Below are positions 3,059-34,911 of a stretch of 64,000 nucleotides of DNA, piece after piece. The stretch spans positions 4,588,001-4,652,000 of the forward strand of contig NC_085849.1 of the NCBI RefSeq assembly GCF_020906515.1, read 5' to 3'. How positions within the stretch are numbered: position 1 is the stretch's first letter; the number at the start of each line of letters is the position of its first letter. The position numbers and the translations under genes are program-made. A model generated the notes under the pieces. It was not told the DNA's origin and did no database searches. It saw nothing but the letters and a program-made list of their open reading frames with translations. Source of the stretch: Vanrija pseudolonga. Its lineage: Eukaryota > Basidiomycota > Tremellomycetes > Trichosporonales > Trichosporonaceae.

Positions 3059-3949
3059 CTATGGGTTGTACGCAGCCTCCTCTTGGTAGCTCCTGTACTT
3101 GTCACCCCATTCCGGTGAAAGCACAAACGTCTGGGCTGGCGAAACGGATCAGCAGTTGTTGTGTCCTCGACGTAGTTCACCTACCACATACTCCACAGGG
3201 TGGGGCTTGCGAAACGTTGTCGTCATTGTACGTTGAGATTGTGATCATTGCATGGGTGGTGGAAACCACCTCGGTCTCGCGGAAGTCCGGCTTGGGACCG
3301 GAGTATGCATACCCAGTGAGGGTGCAGTGGGCGTCCTTGCCGCCATACTCGAGGTACTCGATCGGGGGAAGCCCAGGTCGACAGCTTCCGAGTCTTTGCA
3401 GCCAATCGAGCTGATTAAACGCACTCCACATGGATACACAGAGGTCGGGGCTGTTGAATAGGACGAATTCTGGCGGTGGCGGGGACTGTGGGCGGCACGA
3501 CGGGCCGAAGCAGAAGTAATCGAGGTCATTTGGGCCAGCGAGACACAGCTTGTGGACACTGGGAAACGTTGGCGTGTTGGGAAGGGACAGTTCCACGAGC
3601 CGCTGAAATGCGTCCTCTGGGACTTGGCCCTCAAGACGGAGGGAGTGGACGAAGGTAAACGCGCGCCGTTGGCGCTCGCTGAGGGCTGATACTGGGGGTG
3701 GTGCCGTCCACGGATAGTCTGGATGTTCCCGATCCTCACTCAGGCCGTCGAAGAGCGATATGAGCTCGTCAGCTTCGAACGAGAGACTGCGGTAAAGCGC
3801 AGGGGCCGCCAGTTCCCAGAATGCCGACGACGTGCACAGGAGCTGGCCAGTGCTTCACGACCAGCCGAAGACTTGGGGTCGAGCTCGGCAACTATGAGCT
3901 GGATCAACTCGTTAGGGAGTGCTGGCGAGATGCGACCGGGGTGGGGCAT
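3059..3949 (-). pseudogene. Broken tandem paralogue of the F-box-like gene
   Basis: It is homologous to the gene at 1825-2861 from start (GRISPALPNELIQLIVAELD) to end (PEWGDKYRSYQEEAAYNP, after an intron at 3136-3184). Two defects are visible. Near codon 35 one base is missing relative to the paralogue (GCCAGC-TCC against GCCAGCGTCC), so EALAS and the following ...FWELAAPALYRSLSFEADEL lie in different frames. In addition about 90 codons present in the paralogue are gone between NQLDWL and RPGLPP; the junction (LQRL here, LQEQRL there) suggests loss between short similar sequences. A sequencing error could explain the frameshift but not the internal deletion. It may still be transcribed. Confidence 0.65.
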
Positions 3950-5029
3950 TGGGACCGAGGAGTGGGTTAGGCTTCAAGATGTGTGGGTGGTCAGGAGCAT
4001 GAGCGATGGAGACGGAGTGGTCTCTCGGGTAAGCGGATCCGAGGCCGATGTGTGTGACCCGAGTGCCGTACCTTAGGGGACGTCGTGTCAACGCCGCTCG
4101 TGTGTCTTGTCACCACACATTCAGACATGACCGACACCAACCGCGACCAGCTTCGAGACACCCCGCACGAGATCAAGATGCAAGCAATCTGTGTCCATAT
4201 TCCACACCGTAAGCATAGCACGCGGTTCCAGATCGGACCGAGGTGGGCAGAGGAGGCGGTGCGGACGGGAGGGTGTGAAGGACCAGTAGCCACGCGACCA
4301 GGCACTGGGAACATGGATGCCGAGAGCGAGCTGGAGGGTGATGGGGGATCCGGGGAGTGACCAGTGACGCCGTGTCCCCCTTCCACGCTGCTCGCGTTTG
4401 ATACTTCTGTTGCTGCGCCGCACCCGGGGTGACGGCGTCAAGAGCGACGGGCAGGTGTGGGGTGAGGGATGCCCGAGTGGCCGCCCCCTGACCTTGAGTT
4501 GGGCCGGCCACCAACTTCGGTATGCGGCCTTACCCCAACCTGCAGGACGCCGTCCGAACTCCCAATTGTGCGCCGTGGTGTGCACAGTGCATAGGTCCAC
4601 AGTCGCTTCTTCCAGCTATCCTGCGATCTCCAGCCGGGGTGAGTGAGATTCGTCCCACAGAATGGGGGTCATTAGACTGTGGGGAAGCCCACTGTGAGTC
4701 ATCCCGACAGGCACGGAAACCTCAGAACGTCCACCCTCGCATCGTCGTCTTGAACATGCACGAGTCCAGATGATCACGCTGGCGCACCCACCTCACCGCC
4801 AAGACATGCCCACTCAGATGCTGTGTCGTGCCGGTCCCGTAGGTCACCGGACCAGTATCGGCTACGTAACTTCACAAGTTGTTTCTGATGATACGCGCGC
4901 CGGATGTTAATGACCTTCTCAAGTCATGGTGGGGCGCTTCACAACGTCTTGAGCCGTCTTGACGACGGAGGAGGTTCCCACTGAGACCTGCGGAGAGGCA
5001 CTCATCCCGAACCAACCACACCTAACAAC
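3950..5029. other. Intergenic region before the GGX array
   Basis: No coding signal that I can support. The short open frames on both strands lack homology, splice signals or a compositional trend. The last ~75 bp hold the leader of the first array gene; at 4956-4985 there is a TTGACGACGGAGGAGGTTCC stretch resembling the GACGGTTCC element found upstream of later array members. Confidence 0.5.
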
Positions 5030-5363
5030 ATGAAGACCTTCTCCATCCTCGCCATGGGCCTGCTCGCCCTCCAATGTGAGTCCTTCCCCCAACCGGCACT
5101 GACCCCCAGCCTTCGCCTTCGGGCTCACCATGGCCCCCGAGCACACACCATCGTCTGTGGCCGGCGGTGGCCGCGGCGGTAACGGCGGCAAGGGAGGCAA
5201 CGGCGGTGCTGGAGGTGCCGGCGGCGGCTCCGGTGGCAAGGGGGGAAATGGTGGCGCTGGGGGCAAGGGTGGTGATGGTGGCCCCGGGGGCGTCGGCGGC
5301 GCTGGCGGAGACGGGGGTGCTGGTGGTGCTGGTGGAGCAGGTGGGACCGACCCTTGTGCCTAG
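5030..5363 (+). CDS. GGX array gene A: secreted glycine-rich protein without C-terminal domain
   Basis: Exons 5030-5075 and 5110-5363 (34-bp intron, phase 1) give 99 aa. The signal peptide (MKTFSILAMGLLALQSFAFG) is split by the intron after its fifteenth codon, as in all seven members. The mature protein is almost entirely Gly-Gly-X: GRGGNGGKGGNGGAGG, a GGG break, then GSGGKGGNGG and further K, D, P, V and A triplets, ending AGGTDPCA. There is no barrel domain, and the single Cys is three residues from the end region. (GGX)n runs of this kind can form polyglycine-II helices in other proteins (snow-flea antifreeze protein, some phage adhesin tips), so a packed helical bundle is possible. This is the first and shortest member. 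It may be a truncated copy or a minimal functional form. Function unknown. Confidence 0.8.
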
Positions 5364-5725
5364 TGATGGCCCACTCGCCCATATATGTAGTGAGGCTCGC
5401 TTTGCGGTGTGTCGAAGGATGGACGGCAGTCACGTGAAATGGATGAGAGTTCTCCAGTCGCCGTGCCAGTGAACTGTGAGCAGTCAGGGTGTCACCGTGA
5501 ACGGCACTCCGGGCGGAACCGCGATATTGAGGCGATGACCGTAAACTGAATACCTTGCGCTGCGCTTTGCACCGTGTTAGAGAGCATTAATCTTAAGAGC
5601 TTCGCTTCAGCGCTGACGACGTGTTGAAGGTGTGATCCACCAATGTGCCGGCACCTTGGAGTTTGGCCTGAACGGTCACTGCCCTCGCGGGCTGGAGCTG
5701 CGCTCGGTAAGAGAGAAACAGAGTG

Positions 5726-5818
5726 CGTTAACCTTCGAACGTTTCAGGTGAGTAATCGGGAACAACACGTCAGAGGCGCGGATCACACACTCGCCTTGTA
5801 ATCTAGTGAGGTACCCGG
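5726..5818 (+). repeat. Spacer module copy 1
   Basis: Ordered shared words: GTTAACCTT (about 5728), CGTCAGAGGCGC (about 5768-5779), then GTGAGGTACCCGG (5806-5818). The same order and similar spacing recur at 7745-7818, 9650-9718 and 12450-12539, so these are diverged copies of one duplicated spacer segment. Confidence 0.55.
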
Positions 5819-6790
5819 CAGCCCAGCCTCCCCGTGATCGTCGCAAGTCAAGGCCCAGACAAGCTGGGCTCAACGACGTCTGATCCTGGGGTTGTGAGCT
5901 TAAAGCTGTTAGGCGGTAACACCGGGTGCGATGGCCAATGCCCTCGCCAACGGACGTGATGACTGACGGGTGGAGGCGGTACTGGGGAGTACATGTTGTT
6001 GTCGTGACCACGCTCCCTCTGTCAGCTTTGCACAATCTCCACCCAGGTCGCTGGACGTGCAAAGGGTCACCAGACTGTGTGGTTACGTCCCGCGCTGGCG
6101 CCACACTCTGAGAGCAAGGTTTAAGCATGATGTCGAGTCTCCGGAGCTTTTCCTGCGGGGGAGGTGGGGACAAAAGTGGGCCAGCCACAACCCCTGCCTC
6201 CAGACCTGCACTCCTCGTCCTGTCTCTGGTCATTCTTGATTGATGTAATTTCTCCTGAACGCAGGACCTGAATTTCTTGTGTGGGAAGTGGGTCGTGGTC
6301 GCGAATGCGGGGATGAAGACCGGTCCATGAAGAACACAGGGTCGAGTCTATGACGATCGTTGGGTAGGGTTTCATTTCCCCGTCATCACCGCTTCCGACT
6401 GTGGCCAACCGGAGACGCACACAAACAGGACTGGAGGCACCTCCCCGAGGAGCGAGGTACAGAAACAATGTGTGCGACGAGCCTCGCCAAGCCAACGCTG
6501 CACACTACAAGACGTCCCGATGCGACATCAAGCGCGGCTGGAGTCGTGTCGAGGGAAAGGTCGCGAAACGTTGCACATGATGCTGCTTCAGGCGGCAGTG
6601 CTCGGATGCTTTCTTGAATGATGGGACCCAGTCAGCGGGACGTACCTGTCCCACTTCCGCGTCCGCGTATGTCACTGACGACACTTCATCGCAATGTCTT
6701 GCAGCAGGAGCCTGAGAGTACACATGTGTGGGCGATGCCTGCCAAGACTTCGAGGCGGCATCGAGGAGGCCATCGAGCTTGACGCCGACA

Positions 6791-6798
6791 TATTTAAG
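6791..6798 (+). promoter_or_regulatory. TATA-like box of gene B
   Basis: TATTTAAG lies 60 bp before the gene B start codon, matching the position of the TATA-like boxes of C, E, F and G. Confidence 0.4.
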
Positions 6799-6857
6799 CA
6801 GGTCCGGAGTGTGGGCATCCCTCCCATCACAACACCTTTCTCCAACAATCCAGCAAC

Positions 6858-7578
6858 ATGAACACTTGGTCTTCTCTCGCGGTAGTCCTCATTACCCTCC
6901 AATGTAGGTTCCGCCTTTTTGCACATCTAACGCCAAGCGCTGGCCTCTGGCCTCACCATCTCGCCCTCGGCGTCGGCCACGGCGCTGGCCGGTGCCGGCG
7001 GTGAGGGAGGCAGTGGCGGCAACGGAGGCGACAATGGTGGCGGCGCAGGAGGCGACGGTGGCAATGGCGGTGAGGGAGGCGAGGGACCTGGCGGTGGAGC
7101 CGGCGGCGGCGGAGGCAGCGGTGGCAGCGGCGGCTCCGACCCCGGCGGCGGTGCGGGCGGCAAGGGCGGTAGCGGCGGCAAGGGCGGGGCTGGTGGCCAA
7201 GCTGGCACCTCGAGCGGCATTTCCAGCAGCACCACCGCCAGCGCGCCTACCACCTCCCCGACGTCTGAGCCGGTATGGGAGCAGTACGGCCACGCCCTCA
7301 AGTGGAACGCACCGTACACCGACCTAAACCTCTGTGGGCCGGCCCATGGGCCAGATGAGTTGCTGGTCCAGACGCCCATCGGTCAGAAGCGCGCGAAGTG
7401 CAACGGGACTGTCTCTATCAAGGGCGCCGTCTTTGGCGTTATCATGAAGGGACGCATTACGGGCACCTGCTTCGAGTGCGGCGGGTCGGACATCCAAGTT
7501 TCCCTCCCTATTTGGGAGAAGATCTCGCCCGAGTTCGACGAATCCGCCATCGCCGCGTACTGGAGCTTTGATGACTAG
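6858..7578 (+). CDS. GGX array gene B: secreted GGX-stalk protein with RlpA-like DPBB domain
   Basis: Exons 6858-6903 and 6938-7578 (34-bp intron, phase 1) give 228 aa. Order: signal peptide (MNTWSSLAVVLITLQSLASG), a short Ser/Ala/Thr stretch, a GGX domain (about residues 32-105), a Ser/Thr-rich linker (SGISSSTTASAPTTSPTSEP), then a C-terminal domain of ~95 aa. That domain has the cysteine pattern of RlpA/expansin-like double-psi beta-barrels: LCGP, KCNGT, and TCFECG before DIQVSLPIWEKISPEF and a final YWSF strand. DPBB proteins of this type bind or loosen wall polysaccharides in other systems; no catalytic activity can be inferred here. The GGX block is atypical for the array: acidic/polar triplets (GGE, GGS, GGD) come first and Lys triplets last, opposite to A, C, E and G. 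Confidence 0.85.
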
Positions 7579-7744
7579 GAGGTTAGATGCAACGGTGTGA
7601 ACCCCTCGCTTTGGAGCTGTACACATAGCTACCCGCCAGCACCGAAAGGTCTGATGACGCTGTAAGACTTTCGGTTCGACATCCGCTCCCCAGCCCCTCA
7701 CCGGTACCTCGTCGTCGCTACGGCTAACGGACCGCGGCAATAGC

Positions 7745-7818
7745 TGTAACCTTGTTGTTCCAGCAACAGAGAGCGCGTCAGAGGCGCTCTCACGCACGCG
7801 TGGTGAGGTACCCGGTTG
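7745..7818 (+). repeat. Spacer module copy 2
   Basis: GTAACCTTG, then GCGTCAGAGGCGCTC (7775-7789), then GAGGTACCCGGTTG (7805-7818). Same order as the other three copies. Confidence 0.6.
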
Positions 7819-8430
7819 CGAGGTGCACTCATCATCGTAGCAAGTTCGGCTCGGTATGGAGTCGTCGCTCGCGTCGGGACGGCCTTCTGGTTGTCATGCA
7901 ACGTTGCCATCCCCTCGCGGTTTGGGGGAAGGATCTGCGATGACGACGATGAGGGTGTGGGCCGCACTGTCCAAACAAACATCGGCTCTACACACAGCAT
8001 ATTCAGAGAGGTCTCAATTAACTTCAAATCAGAACCGAGAAACGCGGAAATGTGTGCCCGGATGCCTGCCGCTCATTCTCGTTTCTGAGGGGCACTACCT
8101 CATTACCGCACTATAAAGTTGCGGTCTCTCATGTTCGTCGCGAACTGTAAATGACTTCCGGCACAGCCTCGTCGACATTGCCATGCAAAGAACCCAAACC
8201 TAAAACGTTTCCGACCGGAACTTACGGACGTCTCGGACCGCGGCTCCCGGACCAAAGTGGCAGGCTCACCCCCCCCCCCCCCTGGTGCTCATCATACTCC
8301 ACGCCAGACATGTTGAATGGTCGCGCTCCGGGCCAACCTTCCTCCTCATTGCCGCGCATTGGGGTCTTCTTCTTACTTGGACCCCCCAGCCCGGCGCAGC
8401 AGGGTGCGGGAGAGACCAAGTGGTCGCCGC

Positions 8431-8453
8431 TTGACGACGGTTCCTTTCGCGGG
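8431..8453 (+). promoter_or_regulatory. Shared upstream element, gene C copy
   Basis: TTGACGACGGTTCC followed by TTTCGCGGG, about 140 bp before gene C. It matches TGGCGACGGTTCCTTCGGG before gene D and TGGCGACCGTTCCTTCGGG before gene E. It may be a transcription-factor site or simply duplicated promoter sequence. Confidence 0.45.
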
Positions 8454-8536
8454 TAGGAGCCGCGCGCCAAGATCAATGATGCATGAGTCTCAATGATGCT
8501 TCCAGTTTGGCGGGCAATACAACTCGGCGTGAAAGG

Positions 8537-8544
8537 TATATAAC
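8537..8544 (+). promoter_or_regulatory. TATA box of gene C
   Basis: TATATAAC about 46 bp before the gene C start codon. Confidence 0.5.
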
Positions 8545-8589
8545 GGCGTGGTCGAAGAGCCTTCCAGTTCCAACACAAGTCAAACAACA

Positions 8590-9303
8590 TGAAGCTTTCC
8601 ATCGCCCTTCTCTTCATCTCCCTCCAGAGTAAGTTTGGTCCACGCGGCGTTACTAACATACCCAGCGCTCGCCCTCAGCCTCACCGTCTCGCCTGCGGCG
8701 CACAGCAGTGCCCTCGCCTCGGTCGGGGGTAAGGGTGGCAAGGGTGGCAAGGGTGGTAACGGCGGTGCCGGTGGTGCTGGCGGTGGCGCCGGTGGTGCTG
8801 GTGGTGCTGGCGGTGCTGGCGGTGCTGGCGGTGCCGGTGGCGCTGGAGGCGGCGAGGGAGGTGAAGGTGGTGAGGGTGGAGAGGGTGGCCCCGGCGGTGC
8901 GCTTCCCAGCTCGACGACCACCTCTTTGCCCACGACCCCGAGCTGCCGTACCGAGTGGGATTTCAAGACCGACTTGGCCTTTGTGAAGGAGGTCGACACG
9001 GCCAGTACCTTCTGTGGCAATGTCTCGGTCACTTCGGAGTCGCGGGTTGTCGGCCTCAACCGCGAGTTTTTCCTTAACGGTGACAAGAGCAGATGCGGCG
9101 AGAAGGTGACTGTGCGCATCGGCGACAAGGAGGCCGAGGCGGTCGTCTACGCCGAAGCATTCTTCCAGGCCTTCATTTCGGCGCCCCTCTACAAGGACCT
9201 CACGGGCAAGGACTACGTGCCTTTCACGGAGTATGGTGAAGGCGTCACCCCAGCCAAAGTCCGCTTCGGCGTCAACCCACCCGAGTGCCCGAAGACCGAT
9301 TAG
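8590..9303 (+). CDS. GGX array gene C: secreted GGX-stalk protein, DPBB-like domain lacking CxxC
   Basis: Exons 8590-8629 and 8666-9303 (36-bp intron with a perfect TACTAAC branch site) give 225 aa. The signal peptide is MKLSIALLFISLQTLALS. The GGX domain is strongly zoned: three GGK triplets and GGN, then an Ala block, a GGG break, a longer Ala block, a second GGG break, then four GGE triplets. A Ser/Thr linker leads to a ~125-aa domain aligning with the DPBB of F and G (FCGN, SRVVGLNREFFLNG, RCGEKVTVRIGDKEAEAVV, SAPLYKDLTG). The later CxxC pair of B, F and G is absent (YAEAFFQAF in its place), so two of the four core cysteines are gone together. Expected to be secreted; function unknown. 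Confidence 0.85.
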
Positions 9304-9649
9304 GGCAAAGGGTTGTGATCGCGACACCTTCTACGTCGGGACTACATGCACGAGCAGCCTGGCGATGATGCCCCTTCTCCAATGAGCGAAGTCGTTTCCC
9401 GACCTCGACCAGGTGAAGAGCAGAATTAGCCACCTTGAAATGAACTGTTATTGAAGGCTCGCATTAGAGTCATCCATCTGGGGCAGGAGTCTGACGAACT
9501 GGCACATCAATACGCCATGTGCAAGGCAGGGATATGCAGAGAGAGGGGATAACCTTGAAATGCTTCTGGCTAGCTGGTCGACCAGAGAGGCAAACGCAGC
9601 AACGGAGTAAGGCGGTTCGGGCCCGTCTGGTGCCTCAACCCACCCGAGC

Positions 9650-9718
9650 AAGCAACCTTAAAACCGACGTGCGCGCGTGTCTTCGACCTCTTCCCACATC
9701 CACGCGAGCAGGTACCCG
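9650..9718 (+). repeat. Spacer module copy 3
   Basis: CAACCTTAAAACCGACG, then CTCTTCCCACATCCACGCG, then GAGCAGGTACCCG (9706-9718). It is closest to copy 4, which reads CTTCTCCCACACCCATGTG, GAGCAGGTACCCGG. Confidence 0.55.
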
Positions 9719-9880
9719 CCTTTGAGGTGGCTCCAACCAACATGGACCGAGGCATGCTGTCACCGTCGCGTCCGCGGCAACGTGGGGGGAGGTTGCGACT
9801 CCCATCTCGGCATATTCGACTTCGTGTCATTTTCATTGTGGGTGCCAGCCCCCAATGAGTCTTCTTACCATGATGCTGCT

Positions 9881-9900
9881 TGGCGACGGTTCCTTCGGGA
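9881..9900 (+). promoter_or_regulatory. Shared upstream element, gene D copy
   Basis: TGGCGACGGTTCCTTCGGGA, about 200 bp before gene D, differs from the gene E copy (11197-11216) by one base over 19. Confidence 0.45.
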
Positions 9901-10097
9901 GTGCGCAGTACATCACAGAGGTTCCAAGCTGCCCTACCCTCGTTAGTAATAGGAATGACGCCCGAAGGGAGGGCGGCCTTTGAAGCAGAGGGGGTGCTGA
10001 CGACAAGCAACTCTGCAACAAGAATAACCGCAGCAATGCAAAGGGTAAGCCTGTTTTCGCAACAGTCTCCAACTCCGCCCTAGCTCGCAGCAACATC

Positions 10098-10801
10098 ATG
10101 AAGCTCTCCCTCGTCGTGCTGTTCACCGCGGTCAATTGTGAGCGACCTCCATGCAGCAGCACTGACATCGAGACTTCGCCCTCGGGCTCACTGTTCCGCC
10201 CCACGCCCCACACAGCCCCCTCGTCTCCGTCCCGGGTCGCGGTGGGCGTGGTGGTAAGGGCGGGAAGGGTGGTAGCGGCGGCACCGGAGGTACTTGTGGC
10301 AAAGGTGGTGCTGGTGGAGCGGGTGGCAGTGGTGGTCACCGGGTTGGAGGTGTCGACAACATGACTAGCTCTTCCAGCCCAGAGGGGACCACGATCTTCG
10401 ACTACCTCACAACCACCTCGACCTCATCCGCCCGTGACCCGGCGGAGACGGAGCGATGGCTTCGCCCCGTGTTCACCAATATCGGCAAGGTGAACACGCA
10501 GAACCCATTCTGCGGGGCAGGGTCGAACATCACCACGACCTCGCGCGTCGTCGCCTTGCCCAACGATTACTTCCGCAAAGGCAACCGCTACGACGACATA
10601 TCCAACTGCGGCCGCGAGGTGGTTGTGAGCTGGCAAGGGCACGAAGTAACAGCGACATTGTACGACGTTCTCAGCCGGGGGGACCTCTGGCTCTCGGAGC
10701 AGGTTTATCGCGACCTCACGGGCCGCCAGTACAACGTCGACGCACCTGATGGTGAAGGAGTCCTGGCGGATGTTTCGTATCGCCTTGTTGATCAGGCCTG
10801 A
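10098..10801 (+). CDS. GGX array gene D: secreted GGX-stalk protein, DPBB-like domain lacking CxxC
   Basis: Exons 10098-10137 and 10173-10801 (35-bp intron ending CTGACATCGAG) give 222 aa. The signal peptide is MKLSLVVLFTAVNYFALG. The GGX part is short (about 40 aa, GRGGRGGKGGKGGSGG... with a TCG interruption). It is followed by one EGTTIFDYLTTTS unit, the motif that gene E repeats five times. The C-terminal domain keeps FCGA, SRVVALPNDYFRKG, NCGREVVVSWQGHEVTATL and LWLSEQVYRDLTG, so it is DPBB-like. As in gene C the CxxC pair is missing (YDVLSRGD). D and E are probably sister duplicates, judged by this motif and by their shared upstream element. Confidence 0.85.
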
Positions 10802-11196
10802 TGCACTCTGCTGTCTGAATGGGCCGTGAACGGAGGAACTGACCCTTGGGTTCTACAAGTCTGCTTAGCTCGACAGAACCTGTATCCAAGCGGGTGGGCC
10901 GGGGCCAAGGCCCAGTTCGGCGTTGGCTGGTCGGCGACTAACCATGGGTGCCTTGCAGCACCAATATTCACCTCGCGGGAGCCGTAGTTACTTCAAACTC
11001 TTCAGCCCAGCAACCGTGGACGCATTGCCAGCTCCTCGCCATCACTCACAACCATAAACACCGCTTCGTGGGTGCCCCCATTGCATCCCGGACGACCGGG
11101 GTGAGGTTGGAAGCCCCCTCTCGTCATGTTCAACGGCCAGGCAATGTTTTCATTAGCGTTGTGGCGCTGGCCCCAGAAACCAATGTCGTCGTTGCC

Positions 11197-11216
11197 TGGC
11201 GACCGTTCCTTCGGGG
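11197..11216 (+). promoter_or_regulatory. Shared upstream element, gene E copy
   Basis: TGGCGACCGTTCCTTCGGGG, about 200 bp before gene E, nearly identical to the gene D copy and at the same distance from the start codon. Confidence 0.45.
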
Positions 11217-11360
11217 AGCGGTGATCTTCAGTTGTCGGTTGCTATCAACTCGATGTCAGCAACTGAGTTGCGACGGTGTCGTGCTTGCTGTTACTGCTCT
11301 CTCCGTGCTGAGGTTCACGTTGGCGGGGAATGAGTTTTGGACGAGCCCAACGAAGAGACA

Positions 11361-11367
11361 TATAAAG
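11361..11367 (+). promoter_or_regulatory. TATA box of gene E
   Basis: TATAAAG about 52 bp before the gene E start codon. Confidence 0.55.
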
Positions 11368-11418
11368 GCCGCAGTGGCACAGTTGTCGGCACCCGCACCC
11401 AAGTCAAACAACAACACC

Positions 11419-12103
11419 ATGAAGCTCTCCCTCGCAGTACTCTTCATCTCCCTGCAGTGTAAGTCCCCTCCGCTGACAAAGCTGACACCCAGCCCTCGCC
11501 TTCGGGATGACCATCCACCCGGATGCCCAGCCGCCCCACAGCGTCCTCATCCACGCCCCCGGCGGCGGCGGACGTGGCGGTAACGGCGGCAAGGGTGGCA
11601 ACGGCGGTGCCGGCGGCGCGGGCGGTGGTGCCGGTGGCGCAGGGGGCGCAGGCGGTGCGGGTGGTGCTGGCGGCGCTGGTGGCGGCCAGGGAGGTGCCGG
11701 CGGCGACGGCGGCGAGGGTGGCGCTGGTGGTGACGCCGGTGAGCCGACGCCCACCACGTCTGCCAGCCGCTCCGGGACCACCATCTTCGACTACATCTCG
11801 ACCTCGTCGCCCAAGGAGGGCACCACCATCTTCGACTATGTCACCACCTCTTCGAGGTCGTCGTCGACCAAGGAGGGTACCACCATCTTCGACTACATGA
11901 CCACCACGCCGACGGCCTCGCTTACGGAGGAGTTCGGCATCGGCTGTGGGCGCACTTCATCGGCCAAGGAGGGCACTACCATCTTCGACTACTTCGGGTC
12001 CTCGCCGTCGGCTGAGAGCTCCACCTCGTCTGAGGGTGCGACGACCATCTTCGACTGGTTTGGCTCGTCGCCCTCGGCCGAATACAAGACCCAGGTGGCG
12101 TAA
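11419..12103 (+). CDS. GGX array gene E: secreted GGX protein with five GTTIFDY repeats
   Basis: Exons 11419-11458 and 11493-12103 (34-bp intron) give 216 aa. The signal peptide is MKLSLAVLFISLQSLAFG. The GGX domain is zoned like that of gene C: GRGGNGGKGGNGG, an Ala block with a GGG break, a second break (GGGQGG), then GGD and GGE triplets. The DPBB is absent. In its place are five units of the form (K/S)(E/R)-G-x-T-I-F-D-(Y/W) separated by Ser/Thr-rich linkers of 5-30 residues; the last reads ATTIFDWFGSSPSAE. Each unit is a short aromatic/beta-branched strand, the kind of sequence that can form intermolecular beta-sheets. That is inference. The only cysteine is in FGIGCG between units 3 and 4. 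Confidence 0.85.
11774..12061 (+). repeat. Five GTTIFDY coding repeats
   Basis: Five imperfect copies of GG(G/C)ACCACCATCTTCGACTA-type sequence, in frame, within gene E. One further copy lies in gene D (about 10386-10403). The DNA of the units is as conserved as the protein, while the linkers vary in length, which suggests recent in-gene duplication. Confidence 0.75.
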
Positions 12104-12449
12104 CGGCCATCCTCGACTCCCTCACCCCCAGCTCGACGGCATCCACTCGGCGCCTGAAGGAGTCCGGCGTGTGGCAGCACTACTGTAGCCACCCGGTTAT
12201 GCGGATTGTAGAATGAACTCTGAATGCAAAACCCTATTGAGATTTTGCCTGTTGCGAGGCGGTCAGCACTGAAACCGGATACTGGTACAGCACAGCCTGT
12301 CGCTGTGTCGTGCGTGGAGTAGGCAGCGGCGCGTGCATTGCATCCAAGCACACGCGTTGGTGATCTTCCCGCAAACGGCCACGAGTTATTACCCCCACGT
12401 GCCTGCCTCGACAGCGGTGCACTCGTCCATGCAGTGGGAGAAATGCGGC

Positions 12450-12539
12450 GTACATTAACCTTAAGAGCTTCCGTCCGGTAACCACGGACGACGCGTCTGT
12501 GGCGCTTCTCCCACACCCATGTGAGCAGGTACCCGGTTG
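12450..12539 (+). repeat. Spacer module copy 4
   Basis: CATTAACCTTAAGAGCTTC (12453-12471), then GACGCGTCTGTGGCGCTTC, then GTGAGCAGGTACCCGGTTG (12521-12539). Same order of words as copies 1-3. Confidence 0.6.
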
Positions 12540-12924
12540 TCATGTTCGTCGTACACGGTCTCTCATGAACAAATGTCGCGAGAGCCCGGACCGGGCCTGC
12601 TGGGATCAACCGCGTCCCGTCGCAACCTTGTGCGCGTCAAGCAGTGCTGCGGACCGCCAAGGCTCCCCCATTCACAGGGTCGTTGACAACAACGTTACGA
12701 TGCTTACCGGGGTGTTGCCGACGGAGGGCATGGCGATACATTACCTTGCTGGAGCTCATGTCGTCTGGACGACGGGACGCTCCGTTGGATTCGGGAGGAC
12801 GGTGCCAGCGCATCCCGTCTTCGTACCGTTGTCTACTCCATCTTGCTCGTCTCGAAGGCCATCCCGGTAACAGCGACCTATGTCCCCGTCAACTTGACCG
12901 GGAGACATCCAGAGTCGATGACGA

Positions 12925-12930
12925 TATAAA
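12925..12930 (+). promoter_or_regulatory. TATA box of gene F
   Basis: GTCGATGACGATATAAAG followed by GGAGTCGCCAGCAGCCCA. The same context (GTCAATGAAGATATAAG, GACTCGCCGGCCGCCCA) precedes gene G, so F and G share a duplicated core promoter. Confidence 0.55.
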
Positions 12931-13004
12931 GCGGAGTCGCCAGCAGCCCAAATCCCCCTTCATCGACAAAGTCAACTCGAAACGAATCAACAAGTCCAAT
13001 CGAC

Positions 13005-13747
13005 ATGAAGCTCTCTATCGCCGTGGCGCTCATCTCCCTCCAGTGTAAGTTTGCCCGCTCAAGCAGTCGCTGAACCCAGCCCTCGCCCTGGGATTCACCG
13101 TCCTGCCCCAGTCCTCAAGCAGCACGGCCGCGGAGTCCAGCAGCACGCTCATCTCTTCGGGTGGGCGCGGCGGCAAGGGCGGTAACGGCGGCAAGGGTGG
13201 CAACGGCGGCAACGGCGGCGTGCAGGGCGGCGCTGGAGGCAACGGCGGTGCTGGCGGCGCGGGTGGTGATGCGCCCCCCGGCGGCGTGGCTGGTGCCGGC
13301 GGCGCTGGCGGCGAGGGCGGTGAGGGTGGCAAGGCCGGCGTGTACACCACGACCGCCCCCATCGTCACGCAGAGCAAGGGCCCTCCCTACCAGCCCCAGC
13401 CTAGCGACATCGTGCTCCCCCCGATCCCCTGGGAGCAGGCGCAGGGCATTGCCCTCAATGCCCCGAGCATCGACCACGTCGGCGCGTGGTGCGGCGGCGG
13501 TGCCGACCTCGCCGACGACGCCAAGGTCATCGCCCTCCCCGACAAGTACTTCGACAAGGAGAACAAGGTGTGCGACCGCAAGGTCACGCTTTGGTGGTAC
13601 GGCAAGTACATCACCGCCCCCGTCTACAACAAGTGCGACGTCTGCGACGACAAGACCATCAGCCTCTCGCCCGCCCTTTTCAAGGAGCTTACCGGCACCG
13701 ATGACCGCTCGTCGCCTATTGCGTGGGCCTTTACCGACAAGATCTAG
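13005..13747 (+). CDS. GGX array gene F: secreted GGX-stalk protein with RlpA-like DPBB domain
   Basis: Exons 13005-13044 and 13080-13747 (35-bp intron) give 235 aa. The signal peptide is MKLSIAVALISLQSLALG, followed by a Ser-rich stretch. The GGX domain is less regular (GGNGGVQGGAGG, GGDAPPGGVAGAGG, ending GGEGGEGGKAG). A Pro/Thr/Gln linker leads to the best-preserved barrel of the array: WCGGGADL, DAKVIALPDKYFDKE, VCDRKVTLWWYGKYITAPVY, NKCDVCDD, ISLSPALFKELTG, final IAWAFTDKI. This matches the fungal RlpA/expansin-like DPBB layout (CG, V.AL...F, CG..V.V...G....V.V.D.C..C, .dLSp..F..L, G...v.W.f), with four cysteines expected to form two disulfides. It is the reference copy for judging decay in C and D. 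Confidence 0.88.
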
Positions 13748-14559
13748 GTCGGGATTGTATGTTGTCGTGATGAATACACGCTTGATGATGCTGTGTGACA
13801 TAACGGTGCATGACTGTGGCAGAGCTGGAGCATGCTTTGGGGCCATGTCAAACTCCGTGAAAGTTCTTCAAACGCCCCGGCCGATGATATGCCGCCACAC
13901 TGTCCTCCAATCCACCTGTCTATCCCTCATCCCCGACCTCAAGCTCAGTACGTGCACTTGACACACCCACGAAGGGGCCCACATGCGAAGCTGAACGCGA
14001 CGCTTGTATACTGGAAACAGTCGCCCCGGATCCAAACCTTGTCAGCGCCAAGCATAACTGGCATGGCATAGCCTCCCCTCGTTTCCAGGCAGGCGGGGTA
14101 GCACCCACCGCCTCCTTCATGGGGGAGACACTGCATTCGATCATGTCAGTTACATACTCCCGGCTCATTTTGTCGCCAGGCCCATACCAGGTCGACAAGG
14201 TTCGGGGACACACGCTCACGCGGTGCCGGGTGCCTGCTCATCCCGTCCCCGCATCGTCGTACATACGCTCCGCAGACAGTCGCCTGTTCGCGACATCCCC
14301 CGCGCCGTCTCCGCAAAGTGAGCGACGACAACAGTGCTCTCGATCATCTCCGTGCGCGTCGTATGTTCATATCGCCTGCTGCAGAAGCCATCGACTGGGT
14401 GTTGCGAGTTGGGGTACCAGCCAGCAGTTCGCTTGGCTTGGCATTCCCCACGTCAATGAAGATATAAGACGACTCGCCGGCCGCCCAGCACCAACTCCCA
14501 CCTCAACTCCGCCGACTTTAGTCCAAGTCAAGCCACAGACCACACCCAACAGCAGCATC
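13748..14559. other. Spacer F-G of the GGX array
   Basis: No gene. Apart from the F/G-type core promoter just before gene G I recognise no shared module. Confidence 0.5.
14463..14468 (+). promoter_or_regulatory. TATA box of gene G
   Basis: TATAAG in the same sequence context as the gene F box, about 97 bp before the gene G start codon. Confidence 0.45.
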
Positions 14560-15218
14560 ATGAAGCTCTCACTCACTGTCGCGCTCATCTCCCTCCAGTG
14601 TAAGTTGTCTCCACAAGTCACTGCTAAGCCCCAGCCCTCGCCCTGGGGTTGACCGTCCAGCCGTCGGCCACCACCACAGTCGTAGCCGGCGGCGGTCAAG
14701 GCGGCAAGGGCGGTAACGGTGGCAAGGGCGGCAATGGTGGCGCGGGGGGCGGTGCGGGTGGTGCCGGAGGCAGCGGAGGCGCTGGCGGTGCTGGTGGTGC
14801 TGGTGGCGGCCAGGGTGGTGCCGGTGGTGAGGGCGGTTCTGGCGGTGCGGCGGGTGCCGTGACGCCGACCTCGTCGGCCAAGGTGCCCAGTGGATCCGAC
14901 TACCTGCAGTTCTTCAAGGGGTATGCGCTCAAGGCGCCCATCGACCACTTCGGGCTCCGATGCAGTGATGTCTCCGACGATGCCAAGGTCGTCTCCATCC
15001 CGAGACAGTACTGGGAGGGAGTGGAGGAGCAGCCGTGTGGACGCACCGTCACGCTCTGGTTCAACGGCACCTATGCACAGGCACCCGTCTACAACGAATG
15101 TGCCGTGTGCAGCACGTACGGCGTCGCCATCTCCGCTGCCCTCTTCGAGGAGCTTACCGGCGGGCCGGCAGACCGCTTGGAGCAGGACGAGGTGTGGTGG
15201 ACCGTTGACCCCAAGTGA
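14560..15218 (+). CDS. GGX array gene G: secreted GGX-stalk protein with RlpA-like DPBB domain
   Basis: Exons 14560-14599 and 14635-15218 (35-bp intron ending CTGCTAAGCCCCAG) give 207 aa. The signal peptide is MKLSLTVALISLQSLALG. The GGX domain is zoned: GQGGKGGNGGKGGNGG, Ala/Ser block with a GGG break, a second break (GGGQGG), then GGE and GGS. The linker is very short (TPTSSAKVPSG). The barrel reads RCSD, DAKVVSIPRQYWEG, PCGRTVTLWFNGTYAQAPVY, NECAVCSTYG, VAISAALFEELTG and a final VWWTVDPK strand, i.e. all four core cysteines. It is most similar to gene F, with which it shares promoter sequence, so these are probably the most recent duplicates with an intact barrel. Confidence 0.87.
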
Positions 15219-15889
15219 ATCGTAGCGGGTAAAGAATGAATCCACAAATGATGGTGCCACTGAGGTGCTAGGTTGCCGTGCATCGGGTCCTTGAGCTACT
15301 CATCCAGAATGCAGCTTTCGGTCACTACACGGCGTCGGTCCGGGCCGATATCAATCCCTCCACTGCCCTGCGGAACACGTCCGCGGAAGCTGGAAATGAG
15401 GCGGGCAAGCAAGCGCCGAGCAACCGCCAGGACACTCCGGCCCGGACATACCATATACGTGCTGTATTGGCCGTGAATCGGCCCCTCGGTGTCCACCCCG
15501 GTATCTCGGTGCATGCGCTTGACCACATGCCCAGGGTGAAGTCGCGGATCTTGGCCGGACGCGGCTGGTATCGGCTCAGCCCTGCGGGGGAGTGTGGCGG
15601 CGTGCCTGGTCAGTGGACTGGCACGTCGGTCCGTCCTCGGAGTATAGCGTGCTTGCAGCTGGCGCTTGCATTGGCTGCCTTAAGGCTTGCTGACCGAGAA
15701 TCTTTCGCGTAGCACTCCCAACCGAAGAGCCGAGAGCGCTACTGCCCCGCATAAGAGTGGGTGGGGCCGTGTACCGAGACGCGGTGGCCCGGAGTGGAGG
15801 TGGGGGTCTCGGTGAGGAGTGGGTCGGCTTGGTATATGTATGATTCCCTTGCTGCCAGCGAGCAGGTCCGTGCCCCCGTACACATCACA
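15219..15889. other. Intergenic region after the GGX array
   Basis: No supported gene. The last ~150 bp are the likely promoter/leader of the permease gene (TATATGTATGATTCCC at about 15834). Confidence 0.45.
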
Positions 15890-17510
15890 ATGGCTACGAA
15901 CAACACCGGTACTGGGCCACCACCGCCCATCGACGCCGAGAAGGCGTCCATCGCCTACGCCGAGAGCATCGACGAGAAGAAGCCCGACACCAGCGGCCTG
16001 GCCGCCCACGAGGTCCCCATCGTCGAATACACCCCGGCCGAAGAACGCGCTGTCGTGCGCAAGCTCGACTTTGTCATCGTGACCTTTGGCATGTTGATCT
16101 ACCTCTCTGCGTACCTCGACCGCGGGAATTTGGGCAACGCGCGGTTGATGGGCCTGCAGGAAGAGGCACTTGGCGGCAGTGACAAGGCGTTCAGCATCGC
16201 GCTGGCCTGCTTCTTCATCACGTACACCACCTGGGGCGTGCCGGGTACCATGGCCGCCAAGTGGATGCTACCGTCGCGCTCTCTGGCCACTGGTTGCGCG
16301 CTGTGGTCCATCGGCGCCACTCTCATGGCCGCGTGCTCGTCCCCTGGGCCTATTTACTTCCTCCGTTTGATGATCGGCGTTGGCGAGGCAATGTTCGGCC
16401 AGGCGCTCCCTCTCCTGTGTACGTTCTGGTATACCAAACGCGAGATGGCCGTCCGCATGGGCGTGTTCATTTCGGCTGGTTCCCTCGCTGGAGCATTCGG
16501 TGGTCTCATTGCCTGGGGCGTAAACTCGATGCACAATGCCAAGATTTCGCAGTGGCGGGTCTTGTTCCTCAGTAAGTCGGCCGCGAGGACTTCCCGCTCC
16601 GCTCACACCCCCAGTTGAGGGCCTCCCGGGCCTCATTCTCGCCGTGGCACTATGGTTCTTAATGCCCACGTACCCCGAGGACAAGCAGTGGTTCTTGTCG
16701 CAGCGCGAGTCGGACATCTGCCTCGCGCGAAAGGCGAAGGAATCGGGCAATGAGGGCAACCGCGGTATCGACAAGCGCGCCGTCAAACGCGCTTTCACCG
16801 ACTGGAAGGTCTACGCGATGCCCATAATCTATTTCGCGTTCAACGTGAATGCTTCCAGTGTGAGCGGTTTCCTTCCGACAATTGTGAAAAATCTCGGGAA
16901 GACCGCGGCTACAGCTCAACTCTTCACGGTGCCGCCGTACGCTGTGGCCTTGGTGACCACGGTGATTGTGGCGCACGTTTCCGACCACCTTCAGTCAAGA
17001 GGGTAAGAGGGGGCGAAAGTGCCACAAGCTGACGCCAGATTCTTCCTTGCGGGGTCGTATGTCCTCGGCGCAGTCGGCTGGATTCTCCTTCGTGTGCTCG
17101 ACGCGGCGTCGAAGGACAAGGCCATCCTGTCGGGTCGGTACTTTGGCTGTATCCTGCTGGTATCAGCAGCCTACATTGTCATCCCGCTCCATCTGTCGTG
17201 GGCAGCGTCCAACAACCCGTCGCAGACGCAGCGTGCCGTAGCCATGGGCATGCTCAACCTCATCGGGCAGCAGGGGTCGATCCTTGGTTCGTTCAGCTTT
17301 CCCTCGGCCCACGCACCGCACTACTACCGCGGCGTGTATGTCAACCTCGGCATGCAGTGCTTCGGCGCGCTGGGAAGCGTGCTCTTGAGCCTGTGGTTCC
17401 GGTGGGAGAACAAGCGGAGGGACGAGGTGGAAGGGAAGCCGGACCCAGAGGCGAGGTTGAACGTGCTGGAGGACTTTGACAGGGCTGTGGGGTTCAGGTA
17501 TGTGCCGTGA
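15890..17510 (+). CDS. MFS anion:cation symporter (Dal5/Tna1-type: allantoate/nicotinate family)
   Basis: Three exons: 15890-16571, 16615-17002 and 17039-17510, joining to 513 aa. A ~65-aa cytosolic N-terminus precedes a typical 12-helix MFS fold. The first helix ends YLSAYLDRGNLGNARLMGL, the signature of the ACS/Dal5 family (SYLDR.N.GNA...G). Helix 2 has FFITYTTWGVPGTMAAKW. The central loop (TYPEDKQWFLSQRESDICL) is the usual P.....WL...E...... segment. The C-terminal half includes SWAASNNPSQTQRAVAMGML and a PHYYRG segment, both typical of the family. Members import allantoate, nicotinate, pantothenate or related anions with protons at the plasma membrane; the substrate cannot be told from sequence. 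The two introns (43 and 36 bp) are of the local type. Confidence 0.85.
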
Positions 17511-25050: not shown

Positions 25051-26979
25051 CTACTCCGCCACGCTGACCAGCAGAGGCATCTGCAGTCCGGCGTCCTCCT
25101 CGCCCACGACGCGGGGGCGCATGACAATCCTGCGGAGCGGGTCAGCAATGTTCGTTCGGGCAAGGGCGAGCTTGGCCCGAAGGCCAAGCTCAGCCACCTG
25201 GCCACCTCGCATGCGCTTCGCGCGCGTTCGGCACACTCACTGTGCCTTCCTCTCATACTCCGGGTTCGACTTCAACAGGTCAAACTTGAACGACCTGATC
25301 AACACATAGAGAATAACCTTCATCTCGGCGAGGGCAAACCTGTACCCGATGCAGTTGCGCGCGCCGCCGATAAAGGTCAGCAAGTTGCCGTAGGTCACGC
25401 CGGGGATCTGCTCCTTGGGGATGCCCTCGCGCGAGTAACGGTCCGGGTTGAACTCTGCCGCGTCGGCACCCCAGATGTCGGTGGCGTGGTTGGTCGTGAG
25501 AATGGCTGGGGTTGAATTAGCAGGGTCCCAGCCTGCGCCTACCGACTTACGCATAAACACATGCACGCCCTTCTTCAACAGCACACTGTCAATCATCTTG
25601 CCGTCGCGGCCCTGCACCGGCGTGCCGAACGGCACCACCATGTCCTTGTTCGCCATGCGGATCGTGCCGGGCACCGGCGAGTCGAGGCGCAGGCTCTCGT
25701 GCACAATCTTGTCGAGGAACGGCAGCGCGTTGACCACCGCCTCGGACGGCTGCTCCTCGCCCACGGCGCGGATCTCGTCGCGCAGCCGGTCCTGGTAGTG
25801 CTGGTACTGCGCGAGGCGGTACAGGCACCACGTGAGGGCCGTCGACGTGGTTTCGTTGCCGGCGAGCATAAAGGTCGTGATTTGGGCCAGAACCTCGGCG
25901 TCGGTGAGCTTCTGCTCTGGGCGGAGGTCGGGCGCCATGTTGGCCTTCATCAGACGTCCGAGGAGGTCATTGCCGAGGTCAGAGTCCTTCTCGACCGAGC
26001 CGAGCTCGCGGATGGCCTTCTTCTTCTCGTCGACAATCTCGTTGCCGATCTGGATAGTCTTGTCGCGGGACGCCTTGACGACGCGGGTCTGCTTGGTTTT
26101 CTGGGCGCGGGCGTCAGTGGGGTGAAGCCAATGCAACCTGGCTTCACTCACAATAAAGTCGAGGATGGGGAAGAAGTTCTGAAGAATGCCGAGCGCCGTG
26201 ATCCGAGTGCCGCTCTGGAACATGGCGTTGAACGCCTCGGCCAGCGGGTTACGCCTCTCGCTGAGCGTCTTGAAGTCATAGTTGAACCCGGCGACACCGA
26301 TCACGTCAAGTGTCGTCTGGCCCAGGTATCGCATGATGTCAATCTTGCGTGCGCCCGGCACCCTGTCGACGTCCTTGGCGGGGGTGGGCGAAGTCACGTC
26401 GGCATCCGCCGCCGCCTCGTCCTCGATGAACGTGTTAAACTTGCGCTGGAGCTCGTACGCCTTGTCGTAGAACACGGGGCTCATGTCGCGGATGGCGGCG
26501 GGGCCGAAGGCGGGGTTCAGCACACGGCGCTGGCGGCGGTGCACCTCGCCCTCGGCGGTGAGCACGCCGTTGCCGAGCATGCGCTCGAGGAACTGGTTGG
26601 TGCGCTCGGGCTTGATAAAGTCGTAAGAGTGCTGCAGGATAAAGCCGAGCGCCACGGGGTCGGTAGTGACGATACGGCTCTCGCCAAACATCATGGTGTA
26701 GCGGATCGTGTGGCCGTACTCTGCGATCCACTCGTCGTGCTTGCCGCACGGGGGCGCCTTGATGATCTCGCCCAGGTTGCCCCATACCAGCGAGGTGCGG
26801 GCGGGTCCGCGCAGGTTGCGGAAGGTGAGCGTCGCCTCGCGGTACGGGAACAGGTAGATGTATACGCCGAGGACGAGGAGGGCGATCGCGCCGACCGTCT
26901 TGGCGATGGTGGGGTGTGCCGCCACGAGGGCCGGCAGCACGGGGATGCTGTCGAGGTAGCTGGCTACTGTCGACGACAT
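25051..26979 (-). CDS. Cytochrome P450 monooxygenase
   Basis: Four exons: 26979-26152, 26100-25551, 25505-25241 and 25129-25051, 573 aa. An N-terminal membrane anchor (about residues 22-45) is followed by the P450 fold: helix C WxxxR-like HRRQRRVLNPAF, I-helix AGNETTSTALTW, K-helix ESLR, the PERF-like FNPDRY, and the haem loop FIGGARNCIG with the thiolate Cys. The start is the ATG at 26979; an in-frame non-ATG extension exists. The last exon was recovered because ERKA + QIVMRPRVVGEEDAGLQMPLL is the standard P450 C-terminus; without the 111-bp intron the protein would end early at 25237. Two internal introns (51 and 45 bp) are stop-free and in frame. Family and substrate not assignable. Confidence 0.88.
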
Positions 26980-28719
26980 GGTGGGGAGTGTGGTGTTGGC
27001 AAAAGTCAATTGTCGTCGATGGCACGTTTAAAGAAGCCGGCGTGGAGTGACGAGGCGCTGTTAATCCGCGGCGCAGCAACAGATCTCTCGCTGAAGCGAC
27101 GGCACCCGCGGCAATTAGTGAGCGTCCACGCCGGCGGCTACGACCTGGACAAGGCTGGGGAGTGCGGGGTTTAGGAGAGCAAGAAAGATCAAGATAGCCT
27201 TGGCGAGCAGAGTCAAAGTGGTCAACAGTGACCGCGTCGAACTCCAAGATCCACCGGAAATCCCGTGCCGAATGACAATGCCCGAATTGCAAACCTAATG
27301 ATGATCAGGAATTGGTCCGATTCCACGTGGCATCCCATAAGGATCCTTTCTAATCCAACTACACTTCCCCGCCCCGATGTTCTACGCCGCGGCCGATGCC
27401 CGAGCAACGGCGTCGTCCGACATTCAAATTGACGTCACAAACAACGTGCAGCCACGCCGCCGGCAGGACGCGTGTCGCGTTGCGGTTAGCGAGGTAGAGC
27501 AGTACCTCGGCGCCGAGGTGGGGGCGTGGCGTAGTCATCGCCGACGGGGGGCACGGTGATGGTCAGGCCGTGTCGGCTGGGCGTGGCCGCTGTCGACGGT
27601 GACGACAGCGCGTCGACTGGTGCTAGCCAGCGCTGTATGGGCTCGCGTGGCCTGTCGTGGGTTGCCATGGGTGGGTCTATTTGCTGCCACCGAGGCCGAA
27701 GTCGATCGTTACTACTCCGCAGCGTGGGCTATCTTGGGCCGGCGTGGGGCGTCGTGGGTGTGTGGCATGTGGCATGTCCGCACACTTCCTCAAGCTAGCG
27801 GGCGGCCTGATGAATACAAGCGTAGGAGAATACTGCTACAGTACCTCTGGGGATGCGCCCCGGGCTGTCTGTGTACGCGGCGAGTCTGACTGGTGGTTGA
27901 GCGGCCGTGGGGGATCCGAGTCGGTCGTCGGTGCCGGCTAGGGCTTCGGCGGTCAAACAACTCGGTGGATCACGGCACTGACCTGGCTGCCAGCCATACT
28001 GAGCCCCTCTCAACATCACAGGCCCGCTCACCGCTCGACACTGTTGCGCACAACGTCTTCAGACGTGTCAATGTACCAGATCAGTGCCACACCTTGCCAC
28101 GTGACTCCCATGTGCCAAGCACGCGGGAATACTCCCGCTGCTCTATGACGTCGTTCTGCGGCGGGATCAAATTCGGGTGTGTTGACGTTGAAGGCCAAAC
28201 ATTCAACAGTGACATTGACGACGACAACCACAACGATGATGATGATGGCGAGAGCATGCAAAGAGATGGGCAGCAGCGTGAGCAGTGCAAGGGGGTGGGA
28301 CGATCTGCGGTGTGGAGGCAGTGCATGCGCCGCCCCGCGCCCCGGTGGTACCATGTGCAGTGTCCGCCAAGCCGTGGGTTGTGAGTGGGCCTGGCGGGAG
28401 GGGAGCTGGGTGGAACTGGGGCACCCAATGACACGATGGGGGGCAGGCAGTGGGCGGGCTGCTCGACGTCCATCTCGCTTGCAACAACTTGTCCACTTCA
28501 CTGGCTGTTTATATCATTCTCGACGCGACTTAACTCGAGCAGTCAAGTGCATCTCTCTGCTCCCCCCTAAGCAAGCAACAACTCGACGGCCGTATCCCAC
28601 GCACTTGTCCGACCCGCCGACCCGCCCGCCCGACAACGAGCGACGTATCCACCCCCCCACCCCCACAACTCGCCCACCCCCGCGCAGCCCGCAGCAGTCG
28701 CACACCCCACCGTAACACA
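26980..28719. other. Divergent intergenic region, P450 / KES1
   Basis: 1.7 kb between divergent start codons. Open frames up to 163 aa exist but none shows homology, splice signals or a sensible start. A GATGATGATGATGG microsatellite is at about 28232. Confidence 0.45.
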
Positions 28720-32559: not shown

Positions 32560-33148
32560 GGTGTGGGGGGTGGCGGTGGGGGGAGAAGGGAATGAGGGGC
32601 CCAATGCTGGTTATATACCGCCGGTTCGCACGGTCGAAGCACGTCACTAGTAGCGAGGTTGCAGCAAGGCGAGGGACGGAGGCGGGACGGGAGGGAGGCG
32701 AGGCAGGCAGGCAGGCGAGGCGTCGAGGCAAAGTGCCACACGTGAGCCGGGCCACGGCTAAGATACCCGGAGCGTCGAGGCGACTCCTCGGCTGCAGGCG
32801 ACACAACTCGGCAGTTGGACACTGACGACGATTGTGTCAATTGCAGCGTGTCAGCCGCAGCAGCATCCACCTCGGGGAGTGCATCGGCGAGTGCAGCAGT
32901 ACTTGCGGAATGCATACATCGTGTCCACCACTACACGCGGCAGTGGCGGCGGCAGGCCGGCGTCCGCCAGTGTCGGGCCGTCGCCGCTGCCGACAGTGAC
33001 GTTTGGTCGTCATCCCCATTCGCCGCCGCGCTCGATATCTCTTATCGCATGGTGCTCCACAAGCCAAGCCACAGACTGGCCGAGGGCCGTGCAACAGAGC
33101 CAGGTTACCAAGTCGCTAGCTATGACTGGCTGCTACGTGACATGTGTT
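32560..33148. other. Intergenic region upstream of the HSL-type esterase
   Basis: No supported gene; contains (GGCAGGC)-rich sequence at 32700-32720 on the esterase promoter side. Confidence 0.4.
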
Positions 33149-34513: not shown

Positions 34514-34911
34514 GGTACCGAGCTCTGCGTGTGACTCTGGAAGGTCCATCTTGCCATCGACGCCATCGACGCCATGCACGCCGCTTGATAAGTACTCGCG
34601 GAATCCTGCTGGTGCTACCTTCGGCCCGGCCGACCCATACTCACCTGACGACGCATGCCGCACTAAGTGGTCGCCGCGGCGGTGCCGCTGCTGAGCCGCG
34701 GATACGCCGCGTCCCGCTGGCTTGCTCGCGCTCCGCAGGTGCGGGGATCCCGAGTTGCTCACAGTGGGGCAAGGGTGGGTGTGAGAGCTGAGGCCTCGTC
34801 GCGATCAAGAACAACAATACATGGTAAACGTCTATACTACGAGTCTGATGCCTCTGCCGCCTCCTCTCCGGCCCGGGAGGCTCGCGCTACGCGCTCGCTC
34901 GCCGCCCGCGC

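Follow-up and report, generated by a model that had tools for sequence, protein, structure and literature searches.

A tandem gene array in Vanrija pseudolonga joining a constrained Gly-Gly-X repeat to a diverging double-psi beta-barrel-type domain

The window analysed here is a 64,000-nucleotide stretch of the genome of the basidiomycete Vanrija pseudolonga (contig NC_085849.1, forward-strand positions 4,588,001 to 4,652,000). Window positions 5030-15218 hold seven tandem + strand genes, A to G, which share a common two-exon plan and encode a tract of Gly-Gly-X triplets (GGX), followed in B, C, D, F and G by a C-terminal domain of ~105-125 residues, here called the barrel. The array lies on contig 1 (4,733,269 bases) of the 24.9-Mb genome, with the contig end ~130 kb away.

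Gene structure of the array

Exon 1 is 46 nt long in A and B and 40 nt long in C-G. The short introns (Table 1) are all phase 1, have GT...AG ends in seven of seven cases, and carry a CTRAN-type branch-site-like stretch, as read from the sequence, a little 5' of the AG. The start of exon 2 completes a signal peptide (LALGLTVQPS-type, by eye), after which the GGX tract follows; judged by this signal peptide, the seven proteins are probably secreted. Chance reading frames were ruled out as the source of the genes by the seven consistent two-exon models. The initial annotation had described a tandem family with one plan, and all seven gene models work. Its first exon followed by a 34-36-bp phase-1 intron was found in six genes, the intron of C being 37 nt, and its GGX domain of 40-75 residues compares with the 33 to 68 residues (60-69% Gly) measured with our own boundaries, D falling short with 33.

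Table 1. Features of the array and of a second GGX locus; barrel assignments are those supported in the text.
Feature	Position	Strand	Exon 1	Intron	Exon 2	Residues	Content
Gene A	5030..5363	+	5030-5075	5076-5109 (34 nt)	5110-5363	99	Signal peptide and GGX only (GGX 61 residues); C-terminal ...GGTDPCA
GGX of A	5166..5348	+					6 triplets, one extra Gly, 13 triplets, then GGT
Gene B	6858..7578	+	6858-6903	6904-6937 (34 nt)	6938-7578	228	GGX with reversed charge order; loosenin-like barrel (7261-7575)
Gene C	8589..9303	+	8589-8628	8629-8665 (37 nt)	8666-9303	225	GGX in basic, Ala and acidic blocks; degenerate barrel without CxxC
GGX of C	8725..8898	+					18-residue block (basic start), extra Gly, 21-residue Ala block, extra Gly, 15-residue acidic block
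Gene D	10098..10801	+	10098-10137	10138-10172 (35 nt)	10173-10801	222	Short GGX, one EGTTIFDY, degenerate barrel
Gene E	11419..12103	+	11419-11458	11459-11492 (34 nt)	11493-12103	216	GGX and five GTTIFDY-type repeats (fifth GATTIFDW); no barrel
Post-E stretch	12104..12200	+					3' of the E stop, out of frame with E; like D linker and barrel start
Gene F	13005..13747	+	13005-13044	13045-13079 (35 nt)	13080-13747	235	GGX and barrel (13406-13744)
Gene G	14560..15218	+	14560-14599	14600-14634 (35 nt)	14635-15218	207	GGX and barrel (starting ~14859)
Second GGX locus	C1:108-118 kb						H1 at 3460-5106 and GGX-only protein at 8793-9404 of that stretch

The C-terminal barrel and its active centre

The five C-terminal domains are full-length open frames with a common Cys pair. 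They had been read as double-psi beta-barrel (DPBB) domains, and the lack of a DPBB profile match in F and G had been named as what would speak against this. Pfam, DPBB_1 (PF03330) included, gave no match to any of the seven exon-2 translations at E up to 1 or to any of the five trimmed barrel domains at E up to 10, although profiles of PDB sequences do match; Pfam was therefore set aside as arbiter, and the question was answered by PDB and NCBIfam profiles and by the fold of F. Among PDB sequences, the F barrel matched the Streptomyces papain inhibitor SPI (5NTB, E 9.7e-4) and the loosenin PcaLOOL12 (9CE9, 0.0079), the B barrel taken alone matched 9CE9 (E 0.0046), and a five-row barrel profile with F and B among its rows reached 5NTB at 6e-7; the C and D barrels had no relevant direct PDB match on their own. 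In NCBIfam, Papain_Inhib (NF041659) matched F (9.6e-7, 28.8 bits), G (0.0019, 18.2 bits) and D (0.03, 14.3 bits), none reaching its cut-off of 150 bits. B had no match to this family and C none to any NCBIfam family, and F weakly matched expansin_EXLX1 (0.049). The barrels are linked to each other by tblastn (D-F 6e-11, C-D 2e-9, C-G 2e-5), with no match of B to the other array barrels at E up to 1. Fold comparison of residues 115-207 of the model of F, the sole barrel modelled, pointed to the double-psi beta-barrel group, with 5NTB best, kiwellin (KWL1, 6FPG) among the next best, and loosenin and expansins also among the closest; given the residues covered, it says nothing on GGX. Near the active-centre site, B, F and G have a CxxC pair, which C and D lack. 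These data support the DPBB-type assignment of all five domains: F and B match solved proteins directly, G has a weak family match together with its link to F, and D and C follow via paralogy.

The domains had also been likened to expansin-type barrels that bind wall glucans in other proteins, and this part of the prediction is not supported at the active centre. A Clavibacter expansin fixes the alignment column in which the active-centre Asp stands (Asp82 in the numbering of BsEXLX1), since the wild type (HLDLS) and the D78N mutant (HLNLS) differ there. This column holds Ser in F, Ala in G, Trp in D, Phe in C and Gln in B, so that Asp is found in none of the five, the placements of C and D having alignment gaps nearby. 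Asp is kept in all three genes that match DPBB_1 in other parts of the genome, two of which exceed the cut-off. One study describes Asp82 of BsEXLX1 as essential and reports its conservation in every fungal expansin-related sequence of its set (PMC12779228), and another reports the same Asp as conserved in expansin-related proteins including the loosenin LOOS1 (PMC9888185). Because this residue is absent from all five, the array barrels are unlikely to work in the way proposed for expansins, and the reading as a plain expansin or loosenin was rejected.

The barrel appears to have been lost from E. The stretch just 3' of the E stop scored 37 against the DNA of D, which none of 500 shuffles equalled (the highest reached 28); 22 of 500 shuffles did as well against C, and the scores against B, F and G were no better than shuffles. 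D was also its best protein match (2 of 500 shuffles, among 15 frame-target tests). Since the stretch matches the D linker and barrel start, E looks truncated, which suggests a D-like member that lost its barrel. A barrel remnant downstream of A was rejected, tblastn giving no match in its 3' flank; A probably dropped its barrel as well. As a separate observation, the GTTIFDY-type motif (window 11750-12100) occurs five times in E and once in D.

Present annotation hardly registers the family: Pfam recognizes no domain in it, and when the five barrel genes were sought in the protein collection D alone was returned, with part of its repeat spliced out. The public model of D (LOC62_01G001714, 178 residues, 'uncharacterized protein') has a 167-nt intron at 10138-10304 that cuts away the last residues of the signal peptide together with part of the GGX tract, and we think that this model is wrong. 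F, G, C and B were not returned and are therefore probably not annotated in this form. A homologue search with the F barrel region gave no match at E up to 0.1 among 17 candidates, and a barrel profile found 2 of 1386 candidates, D itself and a 108-residue protein (source labelled lgn, 3897-base contig) identical to D at 53 of 65 residues over the aligned part; these searches favour close relatives and did not use A, E or the GGX tract as queries, and they do not imply absence in other organisms. The union of GGX and DPBB is not named in the titles and abstracts listed by searches of the open-licence literature. In line with the earlier view that the architecture belongs to no described family, no curated family name was found. 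DPBB proteins and GGX proteins are each known; their union looks undescribed.

The GGX tracts in the array and elsewhere in the genome

The first 38 GGX residues were compared between A, C, E and G; irregular blocks kept the other three proteins, B, D and F, out of the comparison. In all six pairs Gly is lost at 0 of 26 positions on either side. Third bases nevertheless vary at 14-17 of these 26 Gly codons, and between 2 and 10 of the 12 X residues are different. The ratio of nonsynonymous to synonymous divergence (dN/dS, Nei-Gojobori) is 0.05-0.17 in these GGX tracts at dS 0.98-1.40. For the barrel, in 4 of the 10 possible pairs, it is 0.62 (F-G), 0.75 (C-D), 1.24 (D-F) and 0.47 (C-G) at dS 0.78-1.65; the pair C-G has 0.06 in GGX compared with 0.47 in the barrel. 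The dS values of the two parts overlap, and the sameness of the repeat is therefore not the result of recent copying. The glycine lattice is the constrained part of these proteins and the barrel the diverging part, so that the rapid divergence claimed earlier for the array is borne out and located in the barrel (dN/dS 0.47-1.24).

The tracts are also ordered into blocks. In C, E and G, blocks of 18, 18 or 21, and then 15 residues are separated by single extra glycines, and the extra Gly ending the first block has one shared position in the tracts of A, C, E and G; the tracts of B, D and F are irregular in stretches. In most array tracts the X residues are K/R/N at first, then Ala, and finally D/E/Q, and the net charge drops from N to C terminus in six of the seven (one-sided shuffle p 0.037 or less each).

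Four single-protein queries of the genome found further GGX tracts, whose number is a lower bound. H1 (C1:111.5-113.1 kb, Table 1) is a 549-residue protein that begins, by eye, with a signal peptide; 67 GGX residues follow, then a Ser/Thr/Pro linker, and then two related C-terminal domains with a CGKKV core, for which no Pfam or PDB match was found. The tie of these domains to the array barrels consists of the CGKKV-type core and a weak BLAST match (best E 0.046), so calling them barrels is a guess; if they are barrels, the ancestor probably had GGX and barrel together. Among 8000 candidates scored, in a search that likewise favours close relatives, the single match to H1 was V. albida Q8F55_001582, a homologue of 50% identity that also carries a GGX tract. 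One phase slip of the kind seen in the array occurs in each of the two, 39 residues before the tract end, and the fall in charge recurs in the V. albida protein (p 0.02). A GGX-only protein of 203 residues, with turns of a few residues, lies ~4 kb beyond H1.

At C3:453 kb, a 571-residue open frame carries a shorter Gly-rich, GGX-like tract followed by a GH5 exo-beta-1,3-glucanase-like domain, whose nearest matches are the fungal enzymes (1EQP, 4.5e-37). At C4:1101 kb, a GGX tract stands ahead of a PL14 lyase domain (9e-68). The two are separated by a stop codon, and the fusion therefore needs an in-frame 48-nt GT...AG intron that removes it. A giant example is a 3154-residue open frame at C6:85526-94990 (-). 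Its first 2663 residues contain nine GGX modules, each bounded by PC...CC, and Ser and Thr make up 71% of what lies outside the modules. Eleven of its 21 segments between GPG or GPA turns are exactly 15 residues long, and six more are 23, with the same turn inside. Its main exon start has no Pfam match; the protein is secreted-looking, and its signal peptide seems, by eye, to lie in an upstream exon. Six other finds were not counted as GGX genes: C5:2516585 (stops), C7:592440 (GN-rich), C3:1906441 (poly-Gly), C6:545406, C4:772124 and C5:154987. Two side observations concern this group. A GGX protein at C7:1402 kb ends in three tandem DEEPQRLGAMGF units separated by KR and looks like a Kex2-processed repeat peptide precursor, and a Ser/Thr-rich open frame at C3:680.9 kb has a Gly-rich, GGX-like C-terminal part.

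Interpretation, alternatives and neighbouring features

Snow flea antifreeze protein (mentioned in PMC10216338) and phage tip adhesins are polyglycine-II bundles, and they share Gly-rich triplet repeats with the array. Such a bundle needs triplets in which every Gly is kept, as is found in A, C, E and G. The repeat spacing, clearest outside the array, and the codon-level constraint are compatible with polyglycine-II. We think that the GGX tracts may pack as short polyglycine-II-type rods, in which basic, neutral and acidic stretches would pair within or between molecules.

We hypothesize, at roughly even chances, that the array encodes small secreted proteins made of a GGX scaffold and a variable, non-catalytic barrel head. 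The GGX domain, under strong purifying selection, would be a surface or extracellular-matrix scaffold that holds the protein in the wall or matrix, perhaps through charge-paired polyglycine-II-type rods. The acid-less double-psi barrel would be a binding head with a variable face, which would have diverged after duplication and been dropped from E and probably from A. Wall or matrix placement, rod folding, charge pairing and barrel binding are all proposed steps; a wall or surface role would be helped by the GGX tracts ahead of wall- and polysaccharide-active domains in the same genome.

Several points weigh against this proposal. The polyglycine-II likeness suggested at the outset fits the spacing and the constraint, but AlphaFold2 predicts no order, with a predicted local distance difference test score (pLDDT) of ~39-46 in the GGX of F and a mean of 49 for E alone (predicted template modelling score 0.20), both from a seven-row alignment. 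The pairing of GGX positions was ungapped, which in a repeat may understate divergence, and dS is near or above 1, close to saturation. The charge order is opposite in B, rising along the tract (p 0.989), is not significant in H1 (p 0.12) and is lacking in the GGX-only protein (p 0.61); agreement among six array proteins counts less than six times, since paralogues are not independent. The likeness of GGX tracts between different genes may reflect composition or convergence and not descent. Wall attachment is left unexplained, since none of the seven proteins ends, by eye, in a hydrophobic glycosylphosphatidylinositol-type tail.

The chief rival explanation, which we consider rather unlikely, is that the barrels are secreted protease inhibitors of the papain-inhibitor or RsRlpA sort, with GGX as tether or spacer. 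SPI resembles the F barrel in sequence and fold and shares the CxxC of F and G; no PDB sequence matches F or the five-row profile better than 5NTB, which also heads the fold matches of F, and among families Papain_Inhib scores best. The accessible text on RsRlpA, a basidiomycete DPBB protein, reports inhibition of papain in vitro (PMC7662947). However, the chain of SPI has no GGX and has both acidic positions (D of RDKC, D of IDLS) that F lacks, the array scores far under the family cut-off even for its best scorer F, and B and C are outside the family. The evidence bears on likeness in sequence and fold, and better conservation of GGX than of the barrel is odd for a mere tether. Kiwellin and the DPBB effectors Pst-DPBB and RsRlpA are likewise small secreted barrels, reported to bind proteins (PMC11820871, PMC7662947); the accessible parts of these sources report no GGX and concern a plant or plant-pathogen setting, unlike anything shown for Vanrija. 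Slightly less probable still is a disordered, low-complexity GGX spacer kept by composition, with the barrels as decaying relics. The lack of predicted order would agree with it, as would the missing barrels of E and A, the missing CxxC pair of C and D, and the barrel dN/dS of 1.24 in one of four pairs. Yet the five barrels are still full-length open frames with a common Cys pair, and disorder by itself leaves unexplained the Gly kept at 26 of 26 positions, the kept block lengths and phase slips, and the regular GPG-turn spacing of the C6 protein.

Wall-loosening proteins of loosenin or expansin type seem improbable. Loosenins are barrel-only secreted fungal proteins, 9CE9 and the expansins (domain D1, as in BsEXLX1) are like the array in their core and among its closest folds, B matches 9CE9, F weakly matches expansin_EXLX1, and loosenins bind chitin according to the accessible text of PMC9888185; but the 9CE9 chain has no GGX, and the Asp described as conserved in fungal expansin-related sequences (PMC12779228) is absent from all five barrels. 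Ice binding, as in snow flea antifreeze protein, is the least probable reading. GGX repeats with the all-Ala middle block of C and E could make a flat face, but no link to cold turned up, none having been searched for, a barrel head is unneeded for ice, and the order of GGX is unproven. Neither an ice nor a phage function is indicated for the array.

Beyond the scaffold-and-head proposal for the array, we tentatively raise the possibility, itself doubtful, that the Vanrija wall or matrix uses a general GGX cassette, in which short charge-graded or Cys-framed polyglycine-II rods bear barrels, glucanases, lyases or mucin-like spacers, the repeat being the conserved working part and the head disposable and variable. 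It would be a convergent fungal counterpart of mycobacterial PGRS. PE_PGRS proteins are multigene surface proteins whose GGX tracts, joined to another domain, are proposed to form polyglycine-II sandwiches; in PE_PGRS33 each helix would comprise three to five triplets (PMC10216338). No homology is shown, and the array differs in its eukaryotic-type signal peptide and its mostly much shorter GGX tracts; it has no PE domain, GGX being preceded by a short signal peptide and linker, and the exon-2 translations have no Pfam match of any kind. If true, polyglycine-II rods would be a structural material of some fungal surfaces as well as of springtails, phages and mycobacteria. A barrel fold that serves wall loosening or protease inhibition in other proteins would then have become a variable, acid-less head.

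Around the array genes, TATA-box-like sites were noted at 8537 (C), 11361 (E), 12925 (F) and 14463 (G), 52-97 nt 5' of the ATG; the same pattern found none upstream of A and D, and TATTTAA stands at 6791, at -67 relative to the B ATG. The first 15.3 kb contain four copies of the sequence AGGTACCCG (5809, 7806, 9710 and 12527), each in a separate intergenic gap of the array; it may be a shared element or a duplicated spacer. The neighbours of the array include a major facilitator superfamily (MFS) transporter, a cytochrome P450 and two alpha/beta-hydrolase or carboxylesterase genes (15755-16615; 25240-27027; 31328-34804), and 4 of the 10 neighbouring open frames scanned had a Pfam match.

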